Of a DNA stretch of 64,000 bases, positions 4,201 to 58,699 are shown in pieces; positions within the stretch are counted from its first letter, which is position 1; every line of letters begins with the position of its first letter. Below the pieces are notes generated by a model. That model ran no database searches, had not been told where the DNA came from, and saw nothing but the letters and a program-made list of their open reading frames with translations. The stretch spans positions 7,378,001 through 7,442,000 of the forward strand of contig OU612072.1 of assembly GCA_914767715.1 (NCBI GenBank), given 5' to 3'. This DNA is from Membranipora membranacea. Its lineage: Eukaryota > Bryozoa > Gymnolaemata > Cheilostomatida > Membraniporidae. The position numbers and the translations under genes were made by a program.

Positions 4201-7200
4201 TGGAACTTTTTTGGCGACAAATATTATGTAATGGGGCGGCCAGCATGCCTCAAGACTTCAAATTAGCGAGGAATGGCCATTTCAAGCCTATTTCAATAAA
4301 ATAGATCTAACAACATTAGCATAAATCCAAAATAATTTCCATCAAAGTATGCCAATAAAACGTGTATAAACTTGGGTTTATATTGTGACATAAACTAAAG
4401 CTCTCTTAAATGGATTATCTAAATCTGCTAGAAATGCCTCATTAGTCCTCTTGACAAAGTTGATATCATTCTTAAATAATTATTTAATAGTCTCATAAGC
4501 CACCCATTTGCTTTTCCTGCACATGAAACTGGCACTGTGGATGATAAAATTTGATAAATGATTTTGGCTTAGCAACAAATGCTTTAGTGCAGAACAGGTG
4601 AGGCCTTAAAACAAATATCTGTTGTAATAAATGACTCGTAGTTCAAGTCAGCGGTTATTTAATTCTCGGCAGGTACGGCAGATTTTAATCAACGTGGGTA
4701 ATAGACTGTCATATGTGTGGGTGACCACACCTGCAAAGTTTAGATTTGAAGCTGGAATACGTTGTTCGTAATTTCCTTTTTTCTTGGCTGCCAACTTTTA
4801 GAAAACATTCTCATCAAATGTAGGTTATGGCAATTAAGTTTTTAAAAGAAATTTATATTTTGTATAGATCGAATGTAGCAAAGCTTTATACAAAAGTTTT
4901 CTTCCGAAAGTATCCATTTCAAACAGACAGCTATTGAGTTTGCTTAGTTATATACAGGCCATATTCCAATCTCAGTATGTTTCATTACATTCATGATTGT
5001 CTTTCCTACCAGTTTTGATGTTTACGATTTAAACGGTTATCTCATTAAATCTCATTAAATCAGGGCTTAATTTGGAGTTTCCCTACCTCAGCTGCAATTT
5101 ATTGATAAACAACCATATTATGTGCATTATTATTTTATTGATCTTACATGTTCAGCTCTTTTAAACACTAGCTCCGTGGATCAATTTAATATACAGTAGT
5201 AGTAAGGTAAAATGTGTGTTCTTGTGATTCCTGTCTGACTTCTACTACAGCTAAGGATCTCACACACAAAAGGCTCATAACATAATGTACCAAATTGACC
5301 TGCCATTTTATAATTTGGTAATGATCGCACGCCGAATCTTCAATATCCTCCAGAGAGCGAGCAAGCGATTGTTATGATGAGATTATAACAGGTTTATGGA
5401 GAAGACTAATTAAACATTTTTTGTTATAATCTGCCATAATTACAGTCTTGTCTTTCATCCTGTACGTCATTAAAAGGATTTATCTGTCCCTATTTAGACA
5501 CAAGATATTTTAGTATTCATTGTCTGAAACCAGCCATAAATTCTTCTTAATTTGTTTCATTGATCAGTTCAGAACAGTGATCCACATCTCAAATAGGGAG
5601 AGAGAGGAAAAAAGAGACTAGATTTCATACCAGTAGCTCTCTGCTGAAGTGCCTCAACAATTTCGTATTTAAGCTCGAGAAACCGCCAATAAATTTCTGT
5701 AATGTGTTTAATAGTAAGCCTTGCTTTCATCTTTTCTACGCCAAGCAATAAAAAACAGACGCAATCCGCTCCTCTGATTGTCTTACCTGGTCATAAATCA
5801 AGGCTCTTATCCGCATTTCTTGCTCTTATACTAATGTTTAAGTAGAGAGCACTCCATAAATCTCAAGGTGTGGTCCCATCAATGTATGCCCATGGGAATC
5901 GATCTACCTGTTTAGAGTCTTCGGTTGCTAAATTGCTAAGCTCCTCAGAATGCTCTGCCAAGATCATTATATTATAGGCAAATTGATCAGAATGTGGTTC
6001 TTTAGTGGAAAGATTAGTGCTGATTGGAAAGTATCTCAATGTTCCCATCGATTCTCGAAAATCCATTTCCTGCTTTCGTTTAAACTGGCAAATAATTGAC
6101 AAAAACATAGAAAGAAAAAGATATCATAAAAAACGTCGTTCATTCCTTCCACATAAAGCTGAAAAAATTCTGTAGCTTATACAGTTTGGTGCAATTTTGT
6201 TTCTTTTTTCTCTTCAAGCTTTCTCAAATATGATGTTATCCGATCGTTTTACCTTAGGCAAATATAATATGGCAAGCATTGATATCTACTTCTTTTTATT
6301 TTCAGTGTTCCTGCAAAAAGGTGAAGACTCTTCAGACCAAAACAGACAGTTTAAAGGGTTCCTTGTATCCGTTCAGCACCCTAACGGCACCATACTCGGC
6401 TCAATGAGTGTAGACGGTGTCGGTCCTCTGAATGCAGAGGTCGGAGACGCCTGTGTCGGTACTTCTCTCAGTCACAAAGATTCTACCCCTAAGGATTACG
6501 TCGTCTTTCAGTGGATCGCTCCAGCTCACCTCGACCCGACAACAGAGGTCATCGTGAGGTGGGTTGTCTCAACAATTATTAATAATCGGTGCAGCCATAT
6601 TGTGTGTTCTTGTTAGCAGTTTTGGCATGGTCTCTATTACAGCACTCTGCCATGAATTTGCATACACTTTAATGACTGTTCAGTGCTTAAGGCCAATGAG
6701 AACATCCAACATTGAGATGAAAAGTTTTACTTATATGGAGATTGCAAATATTGAATCCATCTAAGAACTTACTCTCTCACTGTGACGAACAGTTTAATGC
6801 ATGCAGACAGAGGGCTCTCTGATCTGGTCAGTAGTGAGACTGAAACATTTGTCATCAATAATAAAAATAATGAATAATCTTTATTTCAAACCATTGGTAC
6901 GCTACCTTATGAAAAGTGGCTACCCTTACAGTTTTTGGTACAAGAAAGAAAACAAATTGATAAACTTGCTTTTTGTTGGCATCTAGGATTAGTATTTTAT
7001 AGCCTTGTTAATGTCCTCAAGGCTATGACACCATCTGTGGCCGATTTACCTGGGTATATATAATTCTTTTCCCACCATTGTCCTCCAAACCTTTCTGCTT
7101 GTTATCTTTCCTGTTTTGGAGATGAGGTTGGAGTTGACTGAGTCAGGCACCCCTTTTCTATGTTTAGGATAATGTCACAGTAAAATCATTCTTTACAAGG

Positions 7201-8965
7201 TTATTAATGATTTACGGCTTCTCCGATCAACACTATCATAAGATATTGCTTTACTCTTCATCATATATTTTCTGAATTTTCATTAAAGGAGATTTCTGAT
7301 GATGTTTAAAATGTCCCGGTTGGTCTACGTTGGTATTGTAGCCTGTAAGTTTGTGTTAAAATCATGGCCTTCAATTAGTGCCAATAAGGGTCTGTGATGT
7401 TCATGCCAAAAAGTACAAATGGATAATTGGGAGGTAAACAATCTGTGCAGTATTAAAAACTGTAGGCTGTAGAATTGGTAAAATTGGTTAAATAGGAACT
7501 TGTAGATAAGTATTCCATCTATTGCCGTCATTAGCATAGATTTATCCCCGATTTTTTGGCATTTTCTCTTGGATCATCCCATTACCCTTGACTAATTTGA
7601 CTAATCTCCAGCAATTATCAAGTTACCAGCACGCCAGATAATATCATGTTCATGATTTTAAACATGACCTTTTTTCGTAATAAAAACCGGTCATTGCTAT
7701 CTACGTACCAAACTGTGGCGGGGGTTATCACATCTCTAATTCAGATATTATTTCTTTGTAGGCTTACTGTTGTTGAGACATTGGATACCTTCTACGTGGA
7801 TTGCAATCCATTCTTTTTAAGAATCAATCCCGATTATTTACCAATTGCTGTACCTTTGACGGAGCCAACAGCTGCACCTACTGAGCCACCTACTGAACCC
7901 CCAACAGAGCCTCCAACAGAACCCCCTACTGAGCCCCCAACGGAACCACCTACTGAGCCTCCAACAGAGCCCGAAACAGAACCCCCAACAGAGCCACCTA
8001 CTGAGCCTCCAACAGAACCCCCTACTGAACCACCAACAGAACCACCTACTGAACCCCCAACAGAACCCCCTACAGAGCCCCCAACGGAACCACCTACTGA
8101 GCCTCCAACAGAGCCCCCAACAGAACCCCCAACAGAGCCACCTACTGAGCCCCCAACAGAACCCCCTACTGAGCCCCCAACTGAACCCCCAACTAAGCCC
8201 CCAACTGAACCCCCAACAGAGCCTCCAACTGAACCCCCAACTGAGCCCCCAACGGAACCACCTACTGAGCCTCCAACAGAGCCCCCAATAGAACCCCCAA
8301 CAGAGCCACCTACTGAGCCCCCAACAAAGCCACCTACTGAGCCTCCAACTGAACTACCTACTGAGCCATCAACTGAGCCCCCAACAGGACCTCCCACGGA
8401 GCCCCCAACAGAACCTCCCACAGAGCCCCCAACAGAACCACCTACTGAACCCCCAACAGAACCCCCTACCGAGCCCCCAACAGATCCACCAACTGAAGCC
8501 CCAACCCCTCCACCTACAGCCGCACCGACTGCTGCATCGACTGCTGCACCGACTGCCGCACCGACTACGGCAAACACACCTGGTGTCATTCGCGAATACT
8601 TTACTACAAGAGGATACAACTCATATTACAGCGGCTCCAATGTGGGATCAAACAGGCGAAACGACTTTTTTGGTGATATCAGAAGCCCCCTTGTTGAAAA
8701 TGCTGAAGGAACTTCGGATCACAGGGAACCATTGTCTTATTTACAGCACACCGTTATATCACAAACAGAATGTACAGAAGGAGGAAACTCGTATCGGATC
8801 GTACCAAACACCGGGTGCAGACAATATTATCAGATCCCAGAGATCCCAGCCGTAGCTTATGGGCGCATGTTTACTCGAGCTTGTCCTAGTATACTTATAT
8901 TTGATCCAATCCAGTGTACATGCAACTGGCCACTAGCCAGTCGATGCCCTGACTCTGTCTCATAA
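1001..8965 (+). CDS. Secreted Reeler - Thr/Pro mucin stalk - chitin-binding protein (3 exons)
   Basis: Joining exons 1001-1226, 6306-6558 and 7762-8965 gives 560 codons plus stop. The intron phases match (1, then 2), and the second junction restores an Arg codon (AG|G). Order: signal peptide about 1-33, Reeler domain about 41-180, a stalk of about 60 TEPP-type tetrapeptides (193-432), a spacer, then a chitin-binding type-2-like module (490-560). Reeler domains occur in reelin, ferric-chelate reductase-like proteins and arthropod 'putative defence proteins'; type-2 modules bind chitin in peritrophins and cuticle or shell matrix proteins. The likely product is a secreted, heavily O-glycosylated protein acting at a chitinous surface such as mucus, gut lining, cuticle or shell. 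The domain calls are strong; the biological role is inference. No transmembrane anchor is seen after the signal peptide. Confidence 0.82.
1227..6305 (+). other. Intron 1 of the Reeler gene (5.1 kb)
   Basis: The intron runs from GTAAGT at 1227 to TTTTCAG at 6305. It contains no convincing exon. It holds an A/T-rich stretch around 3500-3540 and short direct repeats (TTACATTTG near 3245-3275; CTCATTAAAT at 5041-5060). Small ORFs at 1455, 3225 and 5863 (minus) show no family resemblance. Confidence 0.6.
6306..6558 (+). CDS. Exon 2: core of the Reeler domain
   Basis: The exon begins after TTTTCAG and continues the phase-1 codon (A|TG). It encodes the Reeler core: FKGFLVSVQ, a central glycine/acidic stretch with one Cys (DACVG), then FQWIAPAHLDPTTEV, which corresponds to the conserved W.AP block. 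It ends AG|GTGGGT, phase 2. A competing GT five bases upstream (GTGAGG) would not keep frame with exon 3. Confidence 0.8.
6559..7761 (+). other. Intron 2 of the Reeler gene
   Basis: This 1.2 kb intron has donor GTGGGT at 6559 and acceptor TTCTTTGTAG at 7761. Nothing else is recognised in it. Confidence 0.65.
7762..8965 (+). CDS. Exon 3: end of Reeler, TEPP stalk, chitin-binding module
   Basis: The exon starts with LTVVETLDTFYVDCNP, the usual last strand of a Reeler domain with its closing Cys. It continues with the Thr/Pro/Glu repeat, a Ser/Gly/Tyr-rich spacer, and a Cys-rich tail containing GCRQYY, a CP..L.FDP block and CTCNWP before the final Cys. FDP plus C.WP is typical of peritrophin-type (CBM14) domains. 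The Cys normally found just after the YY aromatic pair is absent, while an additional Cys precedes the CNWP motif. The TAA stop is at 8963-8965. Confidence 0.82.
7855..8577 (+). repeat. 12-bp coding minisatellite (Thr-Glu-Pro-Pro array)
   Basis: The array has about 60 near-identical 12-base units of the type CCAACAGAACCC / CCTACTGAGCCC. It encodes TEPP with occasional Lys, Ile, Leu, Ser, Gly or Asp substitutions and ends in PTAAPTAA-type units. All repeats stay in frame, which points to selection on protein length or composition. Variant units are interspersed, so the array is not freshly expanded. Confidence 0.9.
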
Positions 8966-11599: not shown

Positions 11600-11752
11600 T
11601 TACTGAAGTGGGTTACTTTTGTAATATTTGTCGACTGATTCGAATATCGCTTTGTTAACATCACCATCGGTTGAGCCCGCTTTCTTCATCCAAGCCGTGA
11701 ATTGACCAAGGGCGCGTTCACACAGTAAGTAAACTCCAACTAGTTGGTGAGC
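11600..11752 (-). CDS. Terminal exon: C-terminal half of BAF-like domain
   Basis: The acceptor CTTATTACAG precedes GCT (phase 0). The exon encodes 50 residues plus stop. Residues 1-43 align by eye with the second half of BAF: A..LVGVYLL matches the helix AYVVLGQFL, F.AWMKK matches FREWLKD, and FESVDKYY matches the last helix CLREWCDAF. The short tail KSNPLQ follows. Near the 5' end LLCERALGQF lines up with the BAF linker preceding FREW. Confidence 0.68.
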   Translation of the reverse strand, partial: AHQLVGVYLLCERALGQFTAWMKKAGSTDGDVNKAIFESVDKYYKSNPLQ

Positions 11753-14700
11753 CTGTAATAAGAAGTAAATACTCATGTGATGTGAAGAACAGATGAAGCT
11801 GGTATTGTATGGCCATAGCCTGTATTGACCAGCTTTACTGGTAGTGTGGGAAAACAACTAATCATATCAAGACAACCTAGATAGTGTCAAAGGTTTCTTG
11901 AGCCTGAAATCAAAATCCCAATCCTATCTATACTTTCATTTCTTAGGTGTAGTTCAAACTGCCGCATCTTAGAACTCAATTAAAGCATCAGCTGAAAGGG
12001 AGACTATGCACTAGATTGCAGATGTACTCTGACCAATGTTGAATAGTAATTGAATATATTATGTATTATATGATTCAAAGTTTGATGAACTATATAATAT
12101 ACTATATAATGTGATGCTGCAAAACGATCATGTTTAAAACAAACTAAGCTCTTTTCTCAGAGGACTTTTTTCGGGAAGAATTTGAAGTTAAATGTTTATA
12201 AATACATATTCAATATATTATATAAGATAGAATTATTATATAACTAAATTTTTTTCTATGATTTTGAATGGATTTGTTTCTTTGGATCATAAATTTTTCT
12301 TTAGGCAGAGCTTGCGAAACAGAATCTAGAAATCCAAAGCCACATCCGAGAATACACATTAAATAAAATGTATTATATATGAGAATATAAAAAAGATACA
12401 ATATTATTCAATATCATATTATATTGTATGTTATTATATTTGGTTTGAAGTTTAAAATTACAGGTAAGTTTTGTGAAGGTGTTTCCGATAAGCGTAATCT
12501 GAAATGAGTTTCAATTTAGGCATTTAGTGGGTTCAACAATAGCTAGGAGTAGGAGGTGGCTCGGACTTTCATCATGCAAGTGTTGAAAGTCGTGGGTTCG
12601 AATCCCACTGCAGTCCACTGACTACTGGGATTTGTTGGACCCCCAGGTGTGCTCCGACCTGCCTACAAACTGAGAGCAAATTGGCGCAGTCATTGCAGTC
12701 TCGCCCTTAAGGCACACTATTTCGCCGCCACGATGTGGTGAGTGACCAACCATTGGGATTTTAACCAACATTTTAACCAACAACATAATTAAAACATTAT
12801 GTCATATAATTTAATTGATCATTTGAATTTTTTAAAGAGTATGATTTTTTTCGGCATAATGTAAGGTTAAATTTAATACCAAAGTTTACTCGCATTCAGA
12901 TGTGACCACGTTGCTATGGTCTGAGTGAGTGTACACAATAAAACCTCTCAGATTTTTAAAAAGCTGAACTTCATCCTTAAATTCCCGACAATGGCCGTTT
13001 CTAGAAATCATGAGACACCAGTCGCAAAAATTGCTGTAGTTATGGTTGTAATTAAGCTAGAAACAAAATGCTGGTACGGTACCAATGTATAGCTGAGGAA
13101 CTGGGCTATAACATGCAATAGATAACTCAAAATCCATTTCCTATTGCAAATGCCTGGTTTTGATGTGCTGTGTCACATATATGGAACCCTGTTCCTATGC
13201 TTCAGCGGTGTCTTTCAATAAGAAACATCAAATATTGCAATCAAATTGTATACATTCTGTGTGTGCATTTTCGGAACGGATTTGTCTAACTGGAAGACCA
13301 AGTGAGTGATAATTTTGAATGATGTGATAGTGATAACTTGCTTTAGTAAAGAATTGCTCTTTCTAATTGAAAGACCACCGTGGTTGAATATAGTGACGCT
13401 ATTTTAAATCAAAACAATCTTAACAAGAAATACTTACCGTATTAATGTTTTCCTCCTCCAATTTATTAATAATCTTTTGAGGAACATTTAGAACATCAAT
13501 CACTGTCTTGCCTTGCCATTTGATATGAGCTGTAACCAGGATTTAACAATGCAAACATGAGAGGTGATCATGAGGAGAAGGAGTGGATCAGTTGGTTAGA
13601 GCGCCGCTCATTCAGCGCGCAAGTGTTGAAGGACCTGGGTTCGAATCCCACTGCAGTCCATTGACTACTGGGAGTTGTTAGAGCACAAGGTGTGTACACA
13701 TTGTGGCCTAGCCCCTAAGGCACACACTATCCCGCCGCCATTCTTCCGAATGTCATGATTCGACTATACCTTGCAATTTTCATGAACATTTATATATATC
13801 AAGCAAAGATCAAGAATAAAATTTAAATGTCAATTAAATGTCAAAGATATTCTATTTGCTGATAGCTCTTAGGTTATATTTTGTCCTAGACACTCTATAC
13901 GACCAAATATGATGACATCTGTCATCAGATACACATATTTGAAAGCATACAGACAAAATATGTATGACTACTGCGTGTTTTCTGGAGGTGCCCTAATGGA
14001 GAGGCAATCCAGGTGAAGAATTAATTCGGAAAAACTGTGGAAACCCTAACAACTCAATACTAGGAATCCAACAACAAAGTAACTCCTTGAACTTTCTTAA
14101 ATTTATGCCAAGTAAGAAGAATAAAAGACATACCGGCCATCTCAACAGATGTAGGGGCGGATGTGCTCGGTGCTGGTGCTGCTTTCAGTGCTGGTGCTGC
14201 TTTCAGTGCTTTCAGTGCTGGTGCTGCTTTCAGTGCTTTCAGTGCTGGTGCTGCTTTCAGTGCTTTCAGTGCTGGTGCTGCTTTCAGTGCTGGTGCTGCT
14301 TTCAGTGCTGGTGATGCTTTCGGTGCCTTTAAATGATTTGAAAAAAATGGCAAGTTAGTTCTCTGGGCCAATTTATGTTATTTTCTTTTGATATCAGAGC
14401 AGTCCCCTGACTTTGGTTTTGACCTGAGTTAACATCGTATATAACTGGCAGGAGGGCATACCCTGGGAGCACAGGCTTATCTGCCAGCCCTAACACCCCG
14501 AAGCCTCACTATTTTTCTACCCCTGAGCTAACAATTAAGCTTCTCATGATCCGGTGATTATTTGCTATTGGTCACTATTCATGTAGCATTCATTGTCTAA
14601 CATTTAAATGATACAAGTCATGACATACATTGTATGCAGAGGTAGAATAGTGTAATTCGGTGAGTTGTATATTTATATGAATTGAGCATTCGCCACAAAA

Positions 14701-17700
14701 CAATTGTTAGTGCACCATTCCGAGTGTATCAATACTAGAGAGCAATATAGGTGCTAGAATGGTGTAGAAATTTTCTGGCAATGGAAATGATAGACTGGTG
14801 TCTGCCATGACAATGGAAATAATGTAGGATTGTATTTGCTGGTAATAGAAAGGGTGCATGTAAGTGTTTGGTTCATGAATTCAATCCTTAAATTCCCGAC
14901 AATGGCAGTTTCTAGAAATCATGAGACACCGGTCGCAAAAATTGCTGTAGTTATGGTTGTAATTAAGCTAGAAACAAAATGCTGGTACGATACCAATGTA
15001 TGACTGAGGACCTGGGCTATAACATGCAATAGATAACTCAAAATCCATTTCCTATTGCAAATGCCTGGTTTTGATGTGCTGCATCACATATATGGAACCC
15101 TGTTCCTATGCTTCAGCGGTGTCTTTCAATGAGAAACATCAAATATTGCAATCAAATTGTATACATTCTGTGTGTGCAATTTCGGAACGGATTTGTCTAA
15201 CTGGAAGACCAAGTGAGTGATAATTTTGAATGATGTGATAGTGATAACTTGCTTTAGTAAAGAATTGCTCTTTCTAATTGAAAGACCACCGTGGTTGAAT
15301 ATAGTGACGCTATTTTAAATCAAAACAATCTTAACAAGAAATACTTACCGTATTAATGTTTTTCTCCTCCAATTTATTAATAATCTTTTGAGGAACATTT
15401 AGAACATCAATCACTGTCTTGCCTTGCCATTTGATATGAGCTGTAACCAGGATTTAACAATGCAAACATGAGAGGTGATCATGAGGAGAAGGAGTGGATC
15501 AGTTGGTTAGAGCGCCGCTCATTCAGCGCGCAAGTGTTGAAGGACCTGGGTTCGAATCCCACTGCAGTCCATTGACTACTGGGAGTTGTTAGAGCACAAG
15601 GTGTGTACACATTGTGGCCTAGCCCCTAAGGCACACACTATCCCGCCGCCATTCTTCCGAATGTGATCAAGAATAGAATTTACCCTATTAGTATTATCAT
15701 ATATGCATCATTTAACCTGTCAAAAATACTATAGGTGCTGATATATAGGTGCAGTTATATTTTGTTCTAAACGCTCTATAAGACCAAATATGATGACATC
15801 GCTTACGTTCTGTCATCAGATACACATATTTGAAAGCATAAAAACAAAATATGTATGACTACTGCGTGTTTTCTGGAGGTGCCCTAATGGAGAGGCAATC
15901 CAGGTGAAGAATTAATTCGGAAAAACTGTGGAAACCCTAACAACTCAATACTAGGAATCCAACAAAAAGGGAACTCCTTGAACTTTCTTTAATTTATGCC
16001 AAGTAAGAAGAATAAAAGACCTACCGTCCATCTCAACAGATGTAGGGGCGGATGTGCTCGGTGCTGGTGCTGCTTTCAGTGCTGGTGCTGCTTTTAGTGC
16101 TGGTGCTGCTTTCAGTGCTGGTGCTGCTTTCAGTGCTGGTGATGCTTTCAGTGCTGGTGCTGCTTTCAGTGCTGGTGCTGCTTTCAGTGCTGGTGCTGCT
16201 TTCAGTGCTGGTGCTGCTTTCAGTGCTGGTGATGCTTTCGGTGCCTTAATGATTTGAAAAAAAAATGGCAAGTTAGTTCACGGGGCCAATTTATGTTATT
16301 TTCTTTTGAGTGTCAAAGCGGTCCCCTGACTTCGATTTTGACCTGAGTAAACATCGTATATAACTGGCAGGAGGGCATACCCTTGGAGCACAGGCTTATC
16401 TGCCAGCCCTAAGAGGGACTGCACATGTGCGATTGTTTACAGCTTAGCGAGAGAAAACTGTTTGTTTAGTGGTCTAAGTTCCACCCCTTTTATTGTAAGC
16501 GGCTTATAATTACACGCTACAAGCTTCTCCCAGCAGATTATACTAGGGCAATGTTTGCCAGCGAGAAAATAGTCTCATTGGTTAATTAGCAGTATCCAGT
16601 GGCACGTTTATGACGGGAATCATTAAAAGGCTTTGTTTATGGAAAATCATTGGCTGATAGCTAACCTTTAGGCCAGCAGCAGCACCTCAATATTGTTTCA
16701 TTGTGTGTAAGGATGATGAACAGAGAAAATTAATAGCAAATAATCAAATGATATTTATTATTGTTTGGATTTTTGAAGTGGTACTATTCCATAAGTGGGG
16801 CAATAAATAATGTTTTGCTAAAATTATTTCTGATGCAGATTCTACAATATTTCTGCAGAACTAACTTGCAAAAGTTACTTGGCAACATTTAACCAATCAA
16901 AATGGATAATTTTGATGATGAGCCAATGACAGTGCAGAGCATTTTTGTTTATATAAGATGGCCGCCAACCATGAGGCTTGCTGCATCAATTCCCACAACA
17001 CAGAGCATATGATAAAATCCACTGATTAAATTGTCACAACAGCAACTGGACAATGCTCTGAGCAAAGCTGAGGATTGGGTTTTGCTAGACAAACAGCCTG
17101 AGCAGCAGGAAGCTACTGAATTACTCTGGATCAGAGAGATAAGCTACCATCATAATGCATATGATCAATGAACTAAACCTTAGTTCATTGATATGATCAT
17201 GGGATATATATTGTGATAGAATGGAGAAAGAATGATGATAATAGAAATTAACATTCTTTCTATGCTCACAAAATCTGATATCTGAGATTTGCATAACAAA
17301 ACTAGTAGCTGCACAGAAAGCCCACACCAGGAAAAATGTGAGTGTTAAGATGAATGATTGTGATAGTTTAGTTCACTTTCAGGTTTCAATGTTTTTGTTT
17401 ACTACAAGTACATTTATTTGTTTATTTCATGAACATACTAGTGTCTCTTCTAGTACTAATAGCCTATCCTCATCCCAGGTGTTTCAATGTGATGGTAGGT
17501 TATCAATATTATTAGAAAATCAATGATTTAAAAGGATTGGGTTTACGTAAAAAAAATAGGTCTATGTAATTGTTGACCTTACTTTCAGCAAGGAGTAACT
17601 TCGCTATTACAGCTTACTCCAGTCCAAATCACAGGCCTTCTGTAGTTGGTGCAAGTCCAGTGGTCGAGTGCCCCAGTGGTCAAGGCCTAAGAGAGAAAAG

Positions 17701-20700
17701 GCCTCGACCACTGGGGCACTTGACCACTGGACTTGCACCAACTACAGAAGGACTGTGGTCCAAATCACTACATTTAAAGCATGCCAGTTACTCATCAGCC
17801 TTTTAATGCTAGTGGGACTGGATTGCTGTTACTACTAGCAAGGCGTAACACTGCTGTTAGCATTATTAGTAGTGTTAATGGGTTGTGATAGCAGTGTTAT
17901 CAAACTATCATTTATGTATGTAGAATGAAGATACATCTAGTAGTGATGATAACGGAAACAAGGCGACAGCTTGGTTACTCTTTACTGTTCAGTGTTTATG
18001 AATTACAGATGCTCGATTCGTTTTTTTTTCAGCTGGCTTGTACCAAGCGGCTCAAGCTAATGAAATAGAGAGCTTACTATTATATATTTGAAAACTCTGA
18101 TGATGTGGCAAGAGAAGCACACTACCATCAAATACTATTCCAGGAAGACTTATGAAAGGTGAAGGATAGTTCAAAACCTTGAAAACTCTAGAGGAGTAAA
18201 TAGTTTGCTTGAGGAGATGTTCACCATTTCACACACTCCTAAGGCAGGTGACATCCAAGCCTTACTTCATTTAGACTCTCACCTCAGCTTGCCAAAAGTT
18301 AGTGCTAGCTAACATTAAATCACCCATAAACTAGCTAAACTAAGCCAAATATTACTCCTCTAGGGTAACTATAGGTTATTACTGTAGTGTTATATCTATT
18401 TCAGCATCTATGTTTTATTTAAAGAAGAGTCTGCTTGTAAAATATGTGTTTATATATCTACTTGCTTGTAATACGAATAACATATTCCTCCAACAGATTT
18501 GTTTTGCAAGCTTTTTAACTTAGCTGCTAGATGTGACGTGAGATAGAATCATTTTTTGTTCAAAGGTTGTTCTACCTCCGGCTGTTAACTTGAGTTGAGA
18601 TCCAGTTATGCGATTATATTTCCGCTCCTTAATCTTGAGTTTCATCATTCTTTCAGTGATACAGCGAAGGAGGAAGAACCACGCAAAAAGGCTTAAAATA
18701 ACTATTCCGATCATAGATCATTGCCAAAGTCCAAGACTAAGAAGCACCAAATTTAACAAGATGACCAAGTACAAAAATACTCTGCATGCATTTGTGTCAA
18801 AGCATGTTTTCACACGAATTTTATATTCTTGATGTCCTTTGTTGTATGCCCACACGTTGACATAGGTCACATTGCAGGAATGTGTTTTACTGTTTTTTTT
18901 TTGCTTTCCTTCTTGTTTACACAGGTCATATTATTGTTGGTATTCACTTATTGTATTTTTATGTAACAATTTTATATATGTTTGTACATATATCTCACCT
19001 TCCAATTAGTCATTGACTGGATTTTTACCTTGATAAAGAATGTATTATATCAATACAGGTTTTCGATGCATTTCATAAGCACATGAGTTCGTCTTTCTTT
19101 GCTTTCCTTCACGTTGACACTGGTCACATTGTGGATATATCTTTGTTTATACTGGTGCGTACTTGTATTGCACCTCTCAATAAGTCAATAAAGAGGATCG
19201 GTTTGTGCCTTGGTAGATAATACACATACAGAATGCTCATTAAAAAACGAAATTTTGCAACTTTTTTGTCTTTTCTTAGCCTCTGTAGAAAAAATATGCA
19301 CTCTGAGAGTTATGAACTTTACATAATTGGATTCGCAGCGAAATTCGGGTCTAGTTTCACTCAATTCTAGGTAACCCCAGAGAGATAATTATTGATTTTT
19401 GATCACTCATTGGCAAGAAGTTTCTGGACTCTACCTGTTTTTCGCATCTTAACAGTTTTTCACATCTTAACTGGATCCACCCTGTCCCCATATATTCCCA
19501 ATTCATAATTAGACTGCTACCAGTTATTTTATAATAGGGTCTTCTTATAAAAAGATAATGAAAATCACATATGAAGTTTATTTATCGCTGTTATTCTGGA
19601 AAGGTTGCGCAAAACCTATTTTTATGCCACAACTGTGTTTGAGGGGTGTCTACAATCTGTCTGTAGAACGTCAATAGATAGATTTAGCAGTATGATATTT
19701 TCTCAAAAACCACTCAAGATATGCATGATATTGATAAAAAAAATTTCAATGACGCCAATTCATTCTATGATCTTTGCCGAAAGAAGTTAAATGGTAAAAA
19801 ACGCTCTATATACCCCCTTTTCCACATTTCTTACTTGGATCCGCCCCCTTTTGCCCCATTTGTAAAATAGTAAAAAATAAATAAAAAACCACCCCAGACA
19901 AAAGCGGTGGATGCTCATGTTTGAAGGCCGGTTTGCACTGTACGCAATTGTGTGGATGCCTTCAATGCAACAATGGCAGGGACGACACTCAGCAAGATGA
20001 GTATGACCAAATTACCGATGATGAGGACCTTGACCTTTAAACTAGTATGAATTTGCATCCTTTCTTTGTTTTGTTTTAGCAGTGATACTTATGTGCTATT
20101 TAAAATAGCTATTAAATTCAAGATACATAATCAGATTACATGCTTTACCAGAATAAAACTTCATAAACGTTTACCTGTTTTTCACATCCCAACTGGATCC
20201 ACCCCTTTCTCATATATTCTCAATTTATTATTACACTGCTACCAGATACTTTATGATGGGGTCTTTTTATAAAAAAATCATGAAAAATGACATGAGAAGT
20301 ACATTTATCACTGTTATTCTTGCACGCTTGCACAAAACCTATTATTATGCCGCAACTGTGTTCGAGGGGTGACTACAATTTGTCTGTAAAACGTCAACCA
20401 TTGGGTTTAGCTGTATGATATTTTCCCAAAAACTACTCAAGATATGCATGATATTGATAAGAAAAATTCAATGACGCTGCTTTATTCTATGAACTTTGCC
20501 AAGAGAAGTTAAATTGCAAAAAACGCCCTTTTAACCCCCTTTTCCATGTTTCTTACTTGGATTCGCCCCTTTTTGCCCCATTTGTGAAATGGTACATATG
20601 CGTCATCAGAACGGCCATAAAAAACTGCACCAGATCCAGTCTTCAATTTTCTCTGTTCAAGACACTTACGCAAATGTTATTTTTAGAGCCTTTTATGTGT

Positions 20701-21863
20701 AGCCGCTGCTGGCCTACTTATGATTATATCGCAGCTTGTAAACACTCTTTATGTCTGCAGTGAAAAATGAGGAGATAATGAGCAAAGCTAGAATTTCAAG
20801 CTCTATTTTATTTTTACTAGCTCTAGTTTTCTAGCTGGTCTGTGGACCGCTTAACACCAAAGCCTCACTATTTTTCTACCAATTACAATTAAGCTTCTCA
20901 TGATGCGGTGATTATTTGCATTCATTGTCTCACATTTAAATGATAAAAGTCATGACATACATTGTATGCATGTTTGTTGTGGATTCAGAGGTAGAATAGT
21001 GTAATTCAGTGAGTTGTGTATTTATATGAATTGAGCATTTGCCACAAAACAATTGTTAGTGTATACCCTTAAGTGCACCATTCCGAGTGTATCAATACTA
21101 GAGAGCAATATAGGTGCTAGAATGGTGCAGAGATTTTCTGGCAATGGAAATGATAGACTGGTGTCTGCCATGACAATGGAAATAATGTAGGATGGTATTT
21201 GCTGGTAATAGAAAGGGTTCATGTAAGTGTTTGGTTCATGAATTCAATGCAGATTATTTGAACAATAGAAAATTCAACAACATTACATTGCTTGCGTTTT
21301 GAACTTTTTTCACTCCCCAAGTTTCCGGATATGATGAGTGATGAGACCTTTGTGATTTTAGCCTAATTTTGCAACCAAAGTCATTACAAATATTTCGTTG
21401 GTTGGCTGATTGATGGCAGCGAGGGTTATCTCGGTCCCTTCCATGTTTCTTTGTTATGGAATTGATTAGAGCACGCCTTTCATTCAGCCAACTGATTGTT
21501 TACTTTTAATTGTGCTGACCAGTGGTTCTATTCACTTTTCAATACGCCCACTAAGCAGTCCCAAAATTAAAATTGTCGAGATCAACAAATGAAATTTATG
21601 TTACGGTTTTTTAAAAATTATTCATGAAAGTGAATACTTACTGATGCCGTGCCTTTTTCCATATACTCCCTATGTTGTGGTTTATGTTTTGATTTGAGGT
21701 GAGCTATCAGTGGATATGTCCTTCCTTTTTTTTGGACAATTTTTTCTTTACACAGCTTGCATGTTACTATATCTATGGTTTGTCCTGTGCTGTACTTTAG
21801 ACCACATGCTGTTTTCACGAAATATTCCCAGATGCGCGATTTTCTTTTTGTGTTGTCTGCCAT
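11600..21863 (-). CDS. BED zinc finger - (ALKAAP)n linker - BAF-like domain protein (6 exons)
   Basis: Minus-strand exons are 21863-21642 (BED), 16244-16025 (A2), 15440-15349 (B2), 14326-14134 (A1), 13529-13438 (B1) and 11752-11600 (terminal). Exon phases run 0-0, 0-1, 1-0, 0-1, 1-0 and 0-stop, so all six splice in frame (323 residues). BED-A2-B2-terminal (228) and BED-A1-B1-terminal (219) are also in frame. The N-terminus is a BED finger; A exons encode a basic, Lys-spaced Ala/Leu/Pro repeat; B plus the terminal exon resemble barrier-to-autointegration factor in spacing (G-K-V, VP-KII-KLEE, A..LVG.YLL, F..WMK, F..VDKYY). BAF is an about 89-residue dsDNA-bridging chromatin protein. A sequence-targeted DNA-bridging factor is plausible. 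Domain calls are from motif reading; the fusion rests on phase matching, not transcripts. Confidence 0.66.
11753..13437 (-). other. Last intron of the BED-BAF gene
   Basis: The intron runs (minus) from GTAAGT next to exon B1 to TTACAG at 11753. It contains a tRNA-derived SINE at 12545-12735 and a very A/T-rich stretch around 12050-12440. The copy-1 edge of the tandem duplication lies near 12975. Confidence 0.55.
12545..12735 (+). mobile_element. tRNA-derived SINE (copy 1)
   Basis: The head has a degenerate A box (GGTGGCTCGG) and a good B box (GGTTCGAATCC). The tail continues CACTGCAGTCCA.TGACTACTGGG and ends in AAGGCACACTAT.TC.CCGCC. The same head and tail recur at 13573, 15483 and 38309. 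This copy has lost part of the D-arm-like region and is the most diverged. Confidence 0.7.
13438..13529 (-). CDS. Exon B1: N-terminal half of BAF-like domain
   Basis: The acceptor GGTTACAG is at 13530 and the donor GTAAGT begins at 13437. Joined to the preceding G it reads A-HIKWQGKTVIDVLNVPQ and then KIINKLEEENINT. VP.KIINKLEE matches the helix-hairpin-helix region of BAF (GIGEVLGKKLEE). It differs from B2 at one residue: Glu here, Lys in B2, in the KLEE-x-NINT stretch. Confidence 0.68.
13573..13745 (+). mobile_element. tRNA-derived SINE (copy 2, in the A1-B1 intron)
   Basis: The head is complete: A box TGGATCAGTTGGTTAGAGCG and B box GGGTTCGAATCCC, then TGACTACTGGGAGTTG and the shared tail AAGGCACACACTATCCCGCC. 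It is almost identical to the copy at 15483, because both belong to the tandem duplication; the insertion therefore predates it. Confidence 0.8.
14134..14326 (-). CDS. Exon A1: Ala/Leu/Lys/Pro repeat linker
   Basis: The acceptor is TCATTTAAAG at 14327 and the donor G|GTATGT at 14133. The exon encodes 64 codons plus one base: APKASPALKAAP, then repeats of ALKAAP with several ALKALKAAP variants, ending PAPSTSAPTSVEMA. Lys recurs every three or six residues, giving a basic low-complexity linker comparable in composition to linker-histone tails. It is 27 bases shorter than A2, a whole number of codons. Confidence 0.66.
15349..15440 (-). CDS. Exon B2: duplicate N-terminal half of BAF-like domain
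   Basis: Same length (92 bases) and splice sites as B1: acceptor GGTTACAG at 15441, donor GTAAGT from 15348. It encodes ...GKTVIDVLNVPQKIINKLEE-KNINT. Conservation of frame, splice sites and nearly all residues argues against simple decay. In an all-exon transcript this half-domain would lack a partner C-terminal half unless exon skipping joins it to the terminal exon. Confidence 0.65.
15483..15661 (+). mobile_element. tRNA-derived SINE (copy 3, in the A2-B2 intron)
   Basis: Paralogue of the 13573 SINE within duplication copy 2, with the same A box, B box and tail. The two copies differ little, giving a rough relative date for the duplication. Confidence 0.8.
16025..16244 (-). CDS. Exon A2: Ala/Leu/Lys/Pro repeat linker (longer copy)
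   Basis: The acceptor is AAATCATTAAG at 16245 and the donor G|GTAGGT at 16024. The exon has 73 codons plus one base, made of ten ALKA(A/S)P hexapeptides flanked by the same APKASP start and PAPSTSAPTSVEMD end as A1. The underlying 18-base unit (plus strand TTCAGTGCTGGTGCTGCT) expands in frame. Its splice phases (0 in, 1 out) equal those of A1. Confidence 0.66.
16577..16957 (+). promoter_or_regulatory. CCAAT/TATA-type promoter inside the insertion
   Basis: Four CCAAT boxes in both orientations (ATTGG at 16577 and 16648; CCAAT at 16893 and 16923) precede a TATA box TATATAAG at 16950-16957. AAGATGGCCGCC follows immediately, resembling a YY1-type motif and also giving an ATG at 16958. Spacing fits a polymerase II core promoter directed rightwards. 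Confidence 0.5.
16958..17170 (+). other. Possible 5' coding sequence of the inserted element
   Basis: An ATG at 16958 opens a 23-codon ORF (MAANHEACC...). An overlapping frame stays open from about 17015 to 17170 and reads ...LDNALSKAEDWVLLDKQ..., rich in Glu/Gln/Leu and protein-like. No family is recognised. It may be a decayed first exon. Confidence 0.25.
17636..17751. repeat. Hairpin with 52-bp arms flanked by 11-bp direct repeats
   Basis: Left arm 17636-17687 and right arm 17700-17751 are near-perfect reverse complements around a 12-base loop (TAAGAGAGAAAA). GTCCAAATCAC occurs just outside both arms (17622-17632 and 17758-17768), as expected for a target-site duplication. Confidence 0.85.
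18840..19170 (+). repeat. Diverged tandem repeats with TTGCTTTCCTT / GGTCACATTG blocks
   Basis: Two to three degenerate copies carry TTTGCTTTCCTTC followed by GTT(G/T)ACAC..GGTCA(C/T)ATT, near 18850, 18900 and 19100. No coding meaning is seen. Confidence 0.45.
19432..20592 (+). repeat. ~430-bp direct repeat pair (19432-19871 and 20169-20592)
   Basis: The two blocks share ordered landmarks: CAACTGGATCCACCC or its variant, CTGCTACCAG, GCGCAAAACC/GCACAAAACC, ATATGCATGATATTGATAA and GCCCCATTTGT. They are clearly diverged with small indels. The Cys-rich exon lies between them. They may be terminal or subterminal repeats of the inserted element. Confidence 0.75.
19898..20040 (+). pseudogene. Orphan C-terminal exon with CXC-type cysteine motif
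   Basis: After a possible acceptor (CACCCCAG) the frame reads KSGGCSCLKAGLHC, TQLCGCLQCNNG and an acidic tail ending EDLDL-stop. The spacing C-x-C-x6-C-x3-C-x-C-x2-C resembles tesmin/TSO1-like CXC zinc motifs, which also occur at the C-termini of some invertebrate transposon proteins. No upstream exons of the same protein are identifiable, so it is probably a remnant. Confidence 0.4.
20849..21246. repeat. Segmental duplication, copy 2, second part
   Basis: It matches 14491-14885 from ACACC(A/C)..AAGCCTCACTATTTTTCTACC to GTTTGGTTCATGAATTCAAT, with a few indels. It lies in intron 1 of the BED-BAF gene and marks the upstream edge of the duplicated cassette. Confidence 0.85.
21642..21863 (-). 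CDS. First exon: BED-type zinc finger
   Basis: Translation starts at 21863 (context CTGGACAATGGC) and 74 codons run to the donor TCA|GTAAGT at 21641. Residues 11-15 (IWEYF) are the aromatic signature of BED fingers; C35 and C38 with H55 and H60 give C-x2-C-x16-H-x4-H. BED fingers bind DNA and are widespread in hAT transposases and domesticated ZBED proteins. No hAT catalytic or dimerisation region is found nearby. The exon ends in phase 0, as the A exons require. It could instead be the first exon of a lost hAT element. Confidence 0.78.
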
Positions 21864-23596: not shown

Positions 23597-26335
23597 TCAT
23601 AAATCAGTTCGATGGATAGCTGGGTTGAGATATCGGTAGACTCGCTGTTTGAAAGCATATTTCTTCACATTGGTGTTGATTGTACCAACAACAGAACCTG
23701 TCCGGGTGTTGTGATTGTGCATATGGCTTGTGGAGACTTTGCCTTCATCAACAGCTGCTGAACCTGCAATGATTTTGAAGTACAATTTTAGATCGGAATT
23801 TTGTCGTCTTTCAGCTAGAGTCTGCCAATCGAACTGAGACATGAGATCACTGATATGATCCGACTTCTTTTTGTGAAAAGCCCATCTGAAAGCCTTCCGA
23901 TTAATCGCTTCCATAGTGTCGATGTGTTTCACCAAGTGAGGCGACCAGCTTTGAGAAGCGTATTCCAGTATAGGCCTACAAATACATTTATAGCAAATAG
24001 CTCTGGATTTTGTACGAGCTTTTTTCAAATTTCTCATCAACATATGAAGTATTTGAGTGGCTTTTTTACATATCTCCCTGATGTGTTTGTCGAAGGATAA
24101 TTGGTCATCTATATGTACACCAAGATATTTAATACTGGAGACTTGAGTCAGCTTGGAGTTGTTGAGCATGTAACTAGCCTGGGTTGAGTTATGTTTTTGA
24201 CGCTGTATTCTCATGTGCTCACACTTATCCACATTAAACTTCATCTGCCAGGTGTTAGCCCACTCAATTAGTCGATCAAGATCGCTCTGCATATGATCCA
24301 CATCCACCTGTGATTGTATTCGGTGAAAAGCTAAAGAGTCATCTGCAAATAGTCTAAGGTTACAAAAATGGACACAAGATGGCATGTCGTTGATATATAA
24401 TAAGAACAGGAGGGGCCCCAGAACACTGCCCTGGGGCACACCAGAGGTGACATGATGCAAAGAAGATTGGACACCATTAACTGTCACTGTGAGTAGTCGG
24501 TTGGATAGCCATTCAGATATCCAGTTGCAGGTAGATCTATGGATTCCTATGGCTTTCATCTCGAGGAGAAGTTTTGGATGCGAGACGACATCAAAAGCCT
24601 TTGAGAAGTCAAGGACTGCTAGATCAACCGGGATGTTCTGATCATAGGCTTCCACAAGGTCTGTTATGGTTGTAAGAAGCTGGGTGTCGCAACCATGTTG
24701 CTTTCTAAATCCATGCTGGCATTCTACAAGCAGATTGTTATTATCTAGGAAATTGTTTATGTCATGACATAGAATATGTTCTAGTATTTTAGATGTAATA
24801 CAGGTCATAGAGATTGGTCGGTAGTTCAGCGGATTACTGCGAGAGCCTTTCTTGTGGATTGGAATGACATTTGCAAGCTTCCAGTTGTCAGGAACAGCGC
24901 CTGTATCAAGAGAATATTGGTAGATTAATGACAATGGTTTGTAGATAAAATTTGCCAGAAACTTAAGCAAGGCAGAGGAGAGTCCGTCAGGTCCCGCACC
25001 TTTGGTGCGATCAAGTGATTGGAGTTGCTTCAGCACTCCAATTGGCTGAATCCTAATACATGAAAACTGTTGAGCAGTACATGGGTTTGTGGGGGGCTGT
25101 CTACCATCATCGTCTGTAAAGACAGAGCTGAAAGCAGATGCAAAGCAATCAGCGATATCAGCGGCTGAGTCGGACAGGCAACCATCTATCTTCTTGATTG
25201 TATTGCTGTTTCCACGCCTGTTAGAAATGAACTTGAACAGGGGTTTACTGTCTCCATTCTCGAGCTTGCTACAAATATGGTTGTTTATAAATGCATTGTA
25301 ATCATGGTTTATGAGTTTATCACAGAGTTTAGATTGTTTAGACGCTTTTTCTCTGTTCTCGGCAGTATTGTGTAGCTTACTTGTTTTATGCCATCGCTTC
25401 CTCCGATTTACTTCCCTCTCTGTTGACTTGGACATCCAAGGGTTCGGGGTGGGCTTTCTCCTTTTGCTTGGGATGTTTTTAAAAGCGGATTTGAGAATAC
25501 TGGATTTGAAGGTTTCCCAAACTGTGTTTACAGGGGCCCCAACTTTCACTTGCTGGCTAATTTCAGTTTCGATGTCATAGCAGTCAATCATTATCTCAGG
25601 GATTTTGGCCTTTTTGAAATTCCAAAATGGTGTAGTATTGTTGTTATTGATAGAGTGGGAGATGGGATGCTCAGAGAATAGGTCAAACAAAAGCACATGG
25701 TGATCAGAACAACTTGGCTCACTTATAGGGATGGAGAGGTCCAAGTTAGAGAGTACAAGGTCGAGGGTGTTTCCGTGTGTGTGTGTCGGAAAATCAACAA
25801 ACTGTTCGAGGTCACTGGCTTCTACAAAATTCAGAAATGATTCATGCATATTTGGGTTCAGGCGTCTTTTGAGTTGACCTTTCGACCAATCAATGTCTGG
25901 TAGGTTGAAGTCACCTACAATCAGTTGATTACATGAGGTTTGGTTACGATGCCAGGTAAGGAAATCATCTATTGAATTGATAGCTGGTCTCCGATAGTAC
26001 ACTGTAAAAGAGAAAGAAAACCCACCAATACTAAGGTCAAGTGACAGGATTTCACCTCTATCTTCTGGTGTGATCTTATTAACTAGAATATTCGATGTTT
26101 CACTAACACCAATCAATACTCCTCCACCACGACCAGAAGTGTTAACACGATCTAGCCTGTAAAGGGTATAATTATCACAAATTTCTTTATCTAAAATGCT
26201 ACCAATTAGTTTAGTTTCTGTGAGGGCAAATAGGTGAGGTTTGTGATGGTCAAGAATTAACTCCAGTTGGTGCCTTTTCCCACTTATGCCGTTGCAGTTC
26301 CAGACCAATATACTGACAGGATGCTTAGTATCCAT
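23597..26335 (-). CDS. Non-LTR retrotransposon ORF2: endonuclease + reverse transcriptase
   Basis: An uninterrupted 912-codon ORF. Residues 1-215 are an exonuclease-endonuclease-phosphatase domain with its key residues: WNCN at 12-15, E40 in LTETK, GDFN at 141-144 and SDHH at 210-213. Residues about 445-700 form the reverse transcriptase: GPDGL, LDFSKAFD (Asp 576), SGVPQGSVLGP and FADD (663-666). A 200-residue thumb/C-terminal region contains KYLGVHIDDQLSF. No RNase H is present. This layout fits the CR1/Jockey group. It copies element RNA into DNA at a nicked chromosomal target. The ORF starts 45 bases after ORF1. Its intactness suggests a recent insertion. Confidence 0.93.
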   Translation of the reverse strand: MDTKHPVSILVWNCNGISGKRHQLELILDHHKPHLFALTETKLIGSILDKEICDNYTLYRLDRVNTSGRGGGVLIGVSETSNILVNKITPEDRGEILSLDLSIGGFSFSFTVYYRRPAINSIDDFLTWHRNQTSCNQLIVGDFNLPDIDWSKGQLKRRLNPNMHESFLNFVEASDLEQFVDFPTHTHGNTLDLVLSNLDLSIPISEPSCSDHHVLLFDLFSEHPISHSINNNNTTPFWNFKKAKIPEIMIDCYDIETEISQQVKVGAPVNTVWETFKSSILKSAFKNIPSKRRKPTPNPWMSKSTEREVNRRKRWHKTSKLHNTAENREKASKQSKLCDKLINHDYNAFINNHICSKLENGDSKPLFKFISNRRGNSNTIKKIDGCLSDSAADIADCFASAFSSVFTDDDGRQPPTNPCTAQQFSCIRIQPIGVLKQLQSLDRTKGAGPDGLSSALLKFLANFIYKPLSLIYQYSLDTGAVPDNWKLANVIPIHKKGSRSNPLNYRPISMTCITSKILEHILCHDINNFLDNNNLLVECQHGFRKQHGCDTQLLTTITDLVEAYDQNIPVDLAVLDFSKAFDVVSHPKLLLEMKAIGIHRSTCNWISEWLSNRLLTVTVNGVQSSLHHVTSGVPQGSVLGPLLFLLYINDMPSCVHFCNLRLFADDSLAFHRIQSQVDVDHMQSDLDRLIEWANTWQMKFNVDKCEHMRIQRQKHNSTQASYMLNNSKLTQVSSIKYLGVHIDDQLSFDKHIREICKKATQILHMLMRNLKKARTKSRAICYKCICRPILEYASQSWSPHLVKHIDTMEAINRKAFRWAFHKKKSDHISDLMSQFDWQTLAERRQNSDLKLYFKIIAGSAAVDEGKVSTSHMHNHNTRTGSVVGTINTNVKKYAFKQRVYRYLNPAIHRTDL

Positions 26336-26380
26336 CGTGCTTGTTAAAGTTAGACCTGTAAGAGAGAGTACGAAATTAGT

Positions 26381-26998
26381 TTAGAGTTCCCTAGACGAGG
26401 ACTGGTCTGTGTTGACAGTAGAGTCAATAGTCTTGCCACTTTCATCTACAACAATCCATGCTTCAGTGCCTTTCTCTGAACACTGGAGCTGGCCACTGCG
26501 TAACCTGTATTTGTTGTCTTTGAACATATCTGAGAGGTTGTTTCGTATACAACGAAGTTTGTACTCCTTCTCTTGCTCTTCTTTTGTTAGATCGGGGGTT
26601 GCAAACATCCGGTCTCTGTCACTCCACCTGTTAAAATACCTTAGGAAGTCTATCTTCATTATCTCTGTGTGAAATTGTATTTTCACCGGCCGTGGTTTGT
26701 TCTGTGGTCTGTTCAATTTCTGTACACCTAGCCTGGAAACCCTAGTAATAGAGTTTGGTAGAAAACCTAAACCATGCATAATGTCAGAGACCTCTTTATG
26801 GGTGTTGACCTCTTCAGCAAGACCATGCAAGATAGCAGACTGATTACGCTCAAGTTTCTGTCTTTCGAGTGACTCACGTTTTGCTCTTTGATCTAACCTT
26901 TCAGCGATAACCTTCAACTCAGCGTTGTTCCCAGCCGGCACAACTGTATCTAAACTATGTTGAAAAGATGTTAACCTTAGAGGCTGAACTACGTCTGC
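26381..26998 (-). pseudogene. Non-LTR ORF1, C-terminal part (split by insertion)
   Basis: The frame is open from just after a TAG at about 27001 to the stop at 26381. The apparent start at 26941 is GTG and unlikely to be real; upstream codons are also open. It shows a basic coiled-coil-like stretch (AERLDQRAKRESLERQKLER), then a fold like L1/CR1 ORF1 proteins: ILHGLAEE, RLGVQ, RPVKIQF, SDRDRMF and EYKLRCI. It would act as the RNA-binding chaperone of the element. The N-terminal part is found displaced at 28563-28204. Confidence 0.7.
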
Positions 26999-28203
26999 CT
27001 AATGTGGCAATCTGTCACGCTATTATATGTTGGAATGGTGCATTTTAGTAGATATTGTTACGATATATAAACTGCCTCTGCTACACATCTAACTAGAGGC
27101 TTGTATATATAGTAACCATGCGTTTTCTAGACAGCAAATTTATAGCCTACACAATATATCATACCTCAGTATATGTTTCATTTTAATTACGATTTATTAG
27201 ATTTAATATCAGTTAGCAATTAGGAGGGTGATTTACTCATAGTGATTCAGCCCACTGTGGATGTTGAGTAGTAGGCCCATTAGACCATTGGGCTTCCACT
27301 AGTATAGGGTAAGTCATTGAGTCATTCGCAGTGTAACTCTTGAAACTAATTTTGAATACAATCTGGTTCAACTTTATTCGCAAAGAACATTAAGTGGTGC
27401 TTAATGCAGGTAATTTAAATCCTGGCTATATATTAACCTATTTCAAAATACTGACATGTATTAATGTTTCAAAACTATTGAATAATGGTTTATTTAAATA
27501 ATTATATTGCACTGTTGTGTTGTCACAAGGGCTTACCAAACGTTAGCAGCTTACCAGGGAGATAAATGCAAGTAATGTATACAAAGTCAACAGCTACGCA
27601 GTCATAAACGCATTGTTCCCATGCAGTTTAGAGACTAGATTTGATTTTAAGAGAATGGAATAAAACAGTGCAAAATAGAATTGCACACAATTTGGAGCCA
27701 CACAGAGTGTTAGCAAACAAATCGCAAAGCATTTTCTTCCCATATGATGCCAGTATTCTTGCAAATTACTCTCTAGTAAAGTAGCTGTAGTTACTGCGCA
27801 GTTACCATATTGGAAAAAACTGTGTTGCTTTGTATGCACCATTTATGCCTCTACGTGGTCATGAACGCATCATTCCCATGCGGTCTAGAGACTAGATTTG
27901 ATTTTGAGAAAATGGAATAAAACAGTGCAAAGTAGAATTGCACACAATTTGGAGCCACACAGGGTGTTAGCAAACAAATGGCAAAGCATTTTATCACATA
28001 TGATGCCAGTATTCTTGCAAATTACTCTCTAGTAAAGTAGCTGTAGTTACTGCGCAGTTACCATATTGGAAACAAACTGTGTTGCTTTGTATGCACCATT
28101 TATGCATCTACAAGATATTGAATGTTAAACGTGTACCATGCAACACAGAAACATTCCAATTGCGACATTGGAAACATGTTGCCGCATACAATGTGCCCGC
28201 TGG
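26999..28203. mobile_element. ~1.2 kb insertion splitting ORF1
   Basis: ORF1 reading stops at both edges. The right edge ends GTGCCCGCTGGG and carries CATTCCAA...GTTGCCGCAT; the left edge, read inward on the other strand, carries a similar CATTCCAA...ATTGCCACAT. This suggests imperfect inverted ends of about 40 bases. No ORF of note lies inside; an internal 257-bp tandem duplication does. Target duplication and exact left border are unclear. Confidence 0.5.
27590..28112 (+). repeat. Tandem duplication, 257-259 bp period, two copies
   Basis: Copy 1 (about 27590-27848) and copy 2 (about 27849-28112) align throughout, for example CCCATGC(A/G)GT(T/C)TAGAGACTAG, TTGCACACAATTTGGAGCCA and CTGTAGTTACTGCGCAGTTA. 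Differences are mostly single bases plus one short indel. Confidence 0.9.
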
Positions 28204-28563
28204 GTTGTTGTTCGATTCACCAGTCACCTGAGCAAAAGTTTTGGTTAGCTTATGGCTGTCAGTCACTAGTCTACTCAAGTTTTCTATCTTGTCATCAATT
28301 TGTTCAAGTCTTGTTTTCACCTCTGGGCCAAAGAAATATTCTGGTAATTTTGGCAAGCACCTGTGGCAGTACCATACAAGTCCAGTTCTACTAGTTATCT
28401 TAGTCAATTCAGTCATGGTCAGTACATCAGCCCACTCGGGTAGACAATAGGTATGGGCAGAATATTGACAGATATTACATTTTAGTGATGGTTTTGTTTT
28501 GGTTACAGCTTTCAGACATTTTAAGCAGGTGTTTGGATTGGCAGGTCTTACATCAATCTTACA
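28204..28563 (-). pseudogene. Non-LTR ORF1, N-terminal PHD-like zinc finger part
   Basis: The minus frame opens after a TGA at 28566 and reads DVRPANPNTCLKC, KCNICQYSAHTYCLPEW, WYCHRCLPKL, then a coiled coil (RLEQIDDKIENLSRLV). Cys/His spacing C-x2-C...C-x2-C-x4-H-x2-C...C-x2-C is that of PHD fingers, which cap ORF1 in some CR1-like elements. It ends at NNN, where the inserted sequence begins. No start codon lies at the beginning, so the 5' end is probably lost. Confidence 0.65.
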
Positions 28564-28747
28564 TCAAAGACGACATCACGCTAGACCGCCTAGGGGGGCG
28601 TAAGGGGCGTGCCTCAGTTTTTCGACATAAATACATAAGGTTTGGACATTGTTCCAGAATACCATCCCATGGGTAGGGCATTTGGGTTCAGAGTGGGTAC
28701 ATGTACCCATCCAGTAGGGCATCAGTAGTATTGTCCTCTGATTGTCC

Positions 28748-30765: not shown

Positions 30766-30980
30766 CAAAGTATACATGCTTGTAACTCCAGATGCCTTTA
30801 CTGTTAGGTAGTACTATTACTACTACTTACTCAGCTTACTAGTTACAAGTCTAGTAGCCTTCCCACTCACTGAACTAAACCATTACTCTGCTGTTATATA
30901 CCAACACTACTCAAGTTAGTGCTGTATTGTGTGCTTAGATCAGTGACTGTGTGGAGTTTATAAGCATGTATACTTTGCCA

Positions 30981-51443: not shown

Positions 51444-58699
<7,256 letters not shown>

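Follow-up and report, generated by a model that had tools for sequence, protein, structure and literature searches.

Barrier-to-autointegration factor (BAF, or BANF1; PF02961) is a small nuclear protein that keeps chromatin together, usually consists of a single domain and binds DNA regardless of sequence. Its diverged paralogue BAF-L (BANF2), likewise a single-domain protein, is not known to bind DNA and forms pairs with BAF. A role for BAF-L as a regulator of BAF has been proposed, as the title of Tifft et al. 2006 indicates (cited in PMC8877947). Among BAF substitutions, G47E abolishes both dimerisation and LEM binding, L58R abolishes LEM binding only (PMC10668030), and A12T weakens the binding of lamin A/C (PMC9458464). 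ZBED proteins couple a BED finger to the hAT dimerisation domain (PMC10027918). In Drosophila BEAF-32, an N-terminal BED finger is followed by a middle region that is possibly a spacer and by a C-terminal BESS domain that self-associates (PMC5021357).

The DNA considered here, a stretch of 64,000 nt from Membranipora membranacea (OU612072.1, positions 7,378,001-7,442,000; GCA_914767715.1; hereafter the window), corresponds to C8:7378001-7442000 in the genome with which it was compared (339 Mb, 18 contigs). On its minus strand a BED exon and a set of BAF-derived exons look like one gene, a candidate model in which both halves are recognisable from sequence. Its layout of BED finger, middle region and C-terminal association domain is most likely best likened to that of BEAF-32, as a likeness of working rather than of descent, with a BESS domain at the C terminus there and a BAF-like domain here. 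ZBED proteins and hAT transposases share the N-terminal BED finger, but the BAF-like domain of the window gene occupies the place of their hAT dimerisation domain. With BAF itself the domain has in common a gap-free profile match, the place and phase of an intron and the dimerisation glycine, whereas it lacks the hairpin glycines, the LEM leucine and the N-terminal motif and, in the gene model, is fused through a linker to a BED finger. BAF-L is comparable in that it, too, belongs to the BAF family but has diverged from its canonical form, a likeness of description and not of sequence; it stands as a single domain.

Exon Organization and the Start of the Coding Region

The initial annotation had placed six minus-strand exons in the window (Table 1), and this arrangement is confirmed: the exons carry GT donors, AG acceptors and mutually fitting phases throughout, and open frames run through each of the three joins considered, namely 1-A-B-T (228 aa), 1-A2-B2-T (219 aa) and all six exons (323 aa).

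Table 1. Exons of the candidate gene and units of its tandem duplication, in window positions
Feature	Position	Strand	Basis
Exon 1: ATG, BED finger (Cx2C, x16, Hx4H), 74 codons, phase-0 donor	21642..21863	-	Profile and translation
Exon A: linker of Ala/Leu/Lys/Pro repeats (73 residues, 10 of them Lys), in-frame ATG close to its end	16025..16244	-	Translation, composition
Exon B: N-terminal part of BAF-like domain (helix-hairpin-helix region)	15349..15440	-	Window ranking
Exon A2: linker exon, second copy, three 9-bp gaps relative to A	14134..14326	-	Sequence comparison
Exon B2: second copy of B, 1 base different	13438..13529	-	Sequence comparison
Exon T: C-terminal portion of the BAF-like domain, with the stop codon	11600..11752	-	Ranking; acceptor at BAF intron site
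Tandem duplication unit 1 (exons A, B)	14876..16412	-	blastn within window
Tandem duplication unit 2 (exons A2, B2)	12965..14493	-	blastn within window

Exon B contains no in-frame ATG and exon T only one, which lies inside the domain, so the start must come from exon A or from upstream of it. Exon 1, of which one DNA copy was found in the genome, offers an ATG whose -3 and +4 positions are A and G; its donor scores 6/9, with the full GTAAGT on the intron side and a poor exon side. The linker encoded by exon A, an 18-bp tandem repeat, is basic and probably flexible.

Because of the ATG close to the end of exon A, the main rival to a fusion is a separate protein of 83 aa. Two transcripts would then exist: one from exon 1, as a small BED-finger gene or a relic of one, the other from a divergent stand-alone BAF-like gene that starts in exon A and has the repeat as its 5' UTR. 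The in-frame ATG has G at both -3 and +4, the product is close to the usual length of BAF and gives the strongest match of any join to the SAM_BAF profile (28.2 bits), and the intron between exons 1 and A is long (5.4 kb) and contains repeats. Against such a reading, exon A is open over its full length in the frame of the domain, and its phase-0 acceptor fits the BED donor. Of ten further candidate first exons with a phase-0 donor of at least 7/9 between 16.2 and 30 kb, two lie inside the frames of reverse-transcriptase elements and eight measure at most 84 nt. Two separate transcripts are accordingly rated as rather unlikely.

Several other features were noted in the window. On the plus strand a Reeler domain frame (6176-6616) is followed by a long PPTE-repeat frame (7601-8965), with a terminal CBM_14 chitin-binding match just below the cut-off. 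Reverse-transcriptase elements occupy 23600-30040 on the minus strand, with a 927-aa endonuclease and reverse-transcriptase frame and a partial second reverse-transcriptase frame; a weak THAP9_C match on the same strand at 39705-40283 (17.1 bits, cut-off 24) is perhaps the relic of a P-element-like transposase. A perfect tetranucleotide array, (AATC)43, lies at 58132-58303.

Identification of the Two Domains

Profile comparison bears out the BED finger proposed in the initial annotation. The zf-BED profile (PF02892, cut-off 20.6 bits) scores 24.1 bits in the 228-aa product and 26.6 in exon 1 alone, and the zinc ligands Cx2C...Hx4H are present in the translation of the exon. Among solved structures, the fingers of ZBED2 and ZBED1 match it weakly (E 0.13 and 0.6), and its structure model is poor (pLDDT 62), all models having been made for single exons, each without an alignment.

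The BAF-like half scores close to the cut-off of the SAM_BAF profile (PF02961, 25 bits) in the three joins. It passes in the 228-aa join at 25.5 bits, so that both profiles exceed their cut-offs in this product, and falls slightly below in the 219-aa and 323-aa joins (24.6 and 23.8 bits). By single sequence, solved BAFs match the domain weakly (best E 0.12). Of the 120 BAF proteins listed among 735 matches, 13 of more than 100 residues were dropped and the remaining 107 used to build a further profile; its alignment to the domain spans 67 gap-free positions, with low identity to BAF. In ungapped scoring with this profile, exons B and B2 rank first and second (12.0 and 11.2 bits; next 5.6) among 1801 stop-free, GT-ended windows of 25 codons, and again first and second among the 31,148 stop-free windows of the 64 kb, while exon T ranks first of 14,981 (24.2 bits; next 13.3). 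Each of these top-ranking windows meets its splice site.

Gapped controls gave different results for the two exons. For a fixed B, no acceptor among 915 scores as well as that of T (24.5 bits; next 7.8), and the best of 3792 plus-strand acceptors reaches 11.4. For a fixed T, B scores 24.4 bits, but one of 1067 minus-strand donors, at position 30974, attains 24.5, and on the plus strand the highest of 3494 donors attains 23.9; as other donors thus tie with B or come near it, the gapped score of B is insufficient alone. Exon T is modeled by AlphaFold as two helices (pLDDT 91). This model by itself recovered no BAF among 30 Foldseek rows or among the 17 listed of 31 re-aligned chains, the two-helix piece being too small to decide. 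In Pfam scans the three joined products matched neither the hAT transposase, the hAT dimerisation nor the BESS domain.

Ancestry of the BAF-like Domain

Descent from a BAF gene of the BAF-like domain, which the initial annotation had recognized by its residue spacing, is well supported by the sequence comparisons: the profile match, the top-ranking ungapped windows, a shared intron and a shuffle test. The canonical BAF gene of this genome lies on the same contig, about 2.4 Mb from the window, and is interrupted at ..FDM|AYVVLG.. in phase 0; the window gene is interrupted at ..INT|AHQLVG.., also in phase 0. Against the genome's own BAF the domain scores 55, a score reached by none of 1000 shuffles. 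Against other copies in the genome the shuffles reaching the score number 2 of 1000 (C3b), 85 of 1000 (C3a) and 350 of 1000 (a C4 half). Two features of database proteins bear, in our reading, on the same intron site and on the doubling of exon B: P0054 and P0081 are interrupted at the BAF intron site by insertions resembling retained introns, and the krill protein P0007 repeats the N-terminal BAF half, which would be a precedent for a doubled exon B.

Further BAF-like sequences occur elsewhere in the genome. Two diverged two-exon genes lie at C3:13846068 and 13855777 (L025, L026); both break, in our reading, at the same intron point, and the first, when joined, scores 74.6 bits with SAM_BAF, its GIG motif reading GIS. 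At C4:5402863-5432137 (L021-L024), five near-identical N-terminal BAF halves lie within 30 kb, one of them on the opposite strand, with the GIG motif kept; no C-terminal halves were found beside them at E 0.1 in the stretches examined. The presence of a canonical BAF and several diverged copies in one genome indicates that the family is diversifying there.

Residues Lost and Retained

How much of BAF function the domain could have kept may be judged from positions that are nearly invariant in the family (human numbering, taken from comparison with solved BAFs; counts from the 107 BAFs). The helix-hairpin-helix residues G25, G27, G31 and G38, which are glycine in 107, 106, 104 and 107 of these, are here replaced by N, P, I and N; in BAF, G25 and G27 are contacts to DNA. 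The N-terminal KHRxFVxEPMG motif falls outside the match, as the alignment starts at position 18 and leaves the preceding residues, including the segment with A12, unaligned. L58, the LEM-contact residue and a leucine in 92 of the 107, is replaced by Q. In contrast to these losses, the dimerisation glycine G47 (107 of 107) is kept, and so are A42, L50 and W62 (each 107 of 107), F59 (106) and K64 (102).

With the hairpin glycines replaced and the N-terminal motif unaligned, DNA bridging by the BAF part is doubtful. This weakens the proposal made in the initial annotation of a DNA-bridging BAF tethered by its BED finger to chosen sites, possibly acting on mobile DNA. Although the BAF descent of the domain and the basic linker agree with that proposal, no tie between the gene and a mobile element was found, nothing found points to a mobile-element role, and as a whole it is very improbable. 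With the dimer glycine kept while hairpin, LEM and N-terminal features are lost, pairing would most likely be the activity left in the domain. Dimerisation is itself uncertain, since D40 and Q48, invariant in all 107 BAFs, are also replaced (by N and V).

Duplication, Repeats, and Selection

The linker exon and the first BAF-derived exon form a cassette that has been duplicated in tandem, the two units being 90.9% identical over 1574 columns. Exons A and A2 differ at 2 bases besides the gaps listed in Table 1. Because the cassette enters and leaves in phase 0, additional copies preserve the frame; and because the intronic sequence surrounding exon B is almost unchanged as well, the likeness of B and B2 does not demonstrate selection. 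Two copies of a repeat about 400 bp long (82.7% identity) lie at 20854-21248, beside exon 1, and at 14495-14885, directly before the second A-B unit, and this repeat may have served the duplication. Another, dispersed repeat, at 13611-13694, 15522-15605, 12568-12651 and 38314-38450, shows box motifs that we read as resembling those of tRNA-derived SINEs; tRNA (ARAGORN) and Rfam (gathering) scans of the 64-kb window gave no match, in this repeat or elsewhere.

A second duplication provides a view of recent change. An inverted partial duplicate (L019) of window positions 13736-11041 lies at C8:7762501-7764949, at a distance of 360 kb from the window gene. It carries exons B2 and T, still open, and at its edge adjoins the intron repeat. 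Neither exon 1 nor exon A was detected alongside, and a search for a new first exon yielded candidates only. Introns and flank differ from the window at 81 of 2200 sites, whereas B2 and T differ at 11 of 245 with no stop, 10 of the 11 changes being nonsynonymous (Fisher p 0.13 for T and 0.32 for T with B2). This pattern is compatible with neutral drift in at least one of the copies and lends no support to present purifying selection.

These observations, together with the repeats and tandem duplication found throughout, are compatible with a decaying or recently assembled locus, its BAF-derived and BED exons being exon-like without yielding a functional protein. All six exons are nevertheless open with intact splice signals, and the duplicate is truncated and may itself be the drifting copy. 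Moreover, a gap-free match over 67 positions and an open frame, kept despite low identity, would be improbable under long neutral drift and argue for constraint during most of the history of the domain. A locus without a functional product is therefore considered unlikely.

Search for BED-BAF Fusions

Consistent with the remark of the initial annotation that it knew of no described BED-BAF fusion, none was found in protein and literature searches, which were limited in reach. Searches with this BAF domain for protein relatives returned two candidates each, none of which was accepted. A broader search for BAF relatives, whose query was a mixed alignment including fly and worm BAF, matched 735 proteins; among the 120 matches listed, all contain PF02961 and none PF02892. 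As the protein search relies on shared words of five residues, a diverged fusion could be missed. In viral contigs, none of 100 pattern matches was confirmed. Within the partial reach of the literature search, no paper was found to pair the full name of BAF with "BED zinc finger" or "zf-BED", and among the listed matches on BAF with BED or transposase terms no BED-BAF fusion is named.

A Proposed Pairing Module Joined to a DNA-reading Finger

The explanation we tentatively prefer, at somewhat less than an even chance, is a single fusion gene with the layout of BEAF-32, in which a BED finger, a linker and a BAF-like pairing module make up one protein. BED exon 1 would be spliced to the basic linker of exon A and then to exons B and T, whose domain derives from a duplicated BAF gene. 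The BAF-derived part has lost its DNA hairpin residues, LEM leucine and A12 segment while retaining the dimerisation glycine, and through this part two fusion proteins, or one fusion protein and an ordinary BAF, could pair. The BED fingers thus brought together would bind paired or separate DNA sites, with the basic linker as a spacer. The BED-to-linker splice, dimerisation, DNA target and cellular role are parts of this scheme that we infer. Counting against it are the weak exon side of the exon 1 donor, the ATG in exon A that permits a BAF-like protein without a BED finger, SAM_BAF scores that miss the threshold in the 219-aa and 323-aa joins, the loss of D40 and Q48, an exon T model that matched no BAF among the PDB rows listed, and a partial duplicate that gives no sign of purifying selection.

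A further and more doubtful step concerns what such a fusion would have achieved in this lineage. Freed from the binding of DNA, LEM and lamin, the BAF dimer fold may have come to pair sequence-specific fingers independently of BEAF-32, and by pairing with BAF the fusion may bring chosen DNA sites to the lamina. If this is true, BAF would have been reused as a protein-pairing part that has lost its DNA surface and become tied to a DNA-reading finger. Such a protein would point to a direct path by which selected DNA sites reach BAF and, with it, the nuclear envelope.
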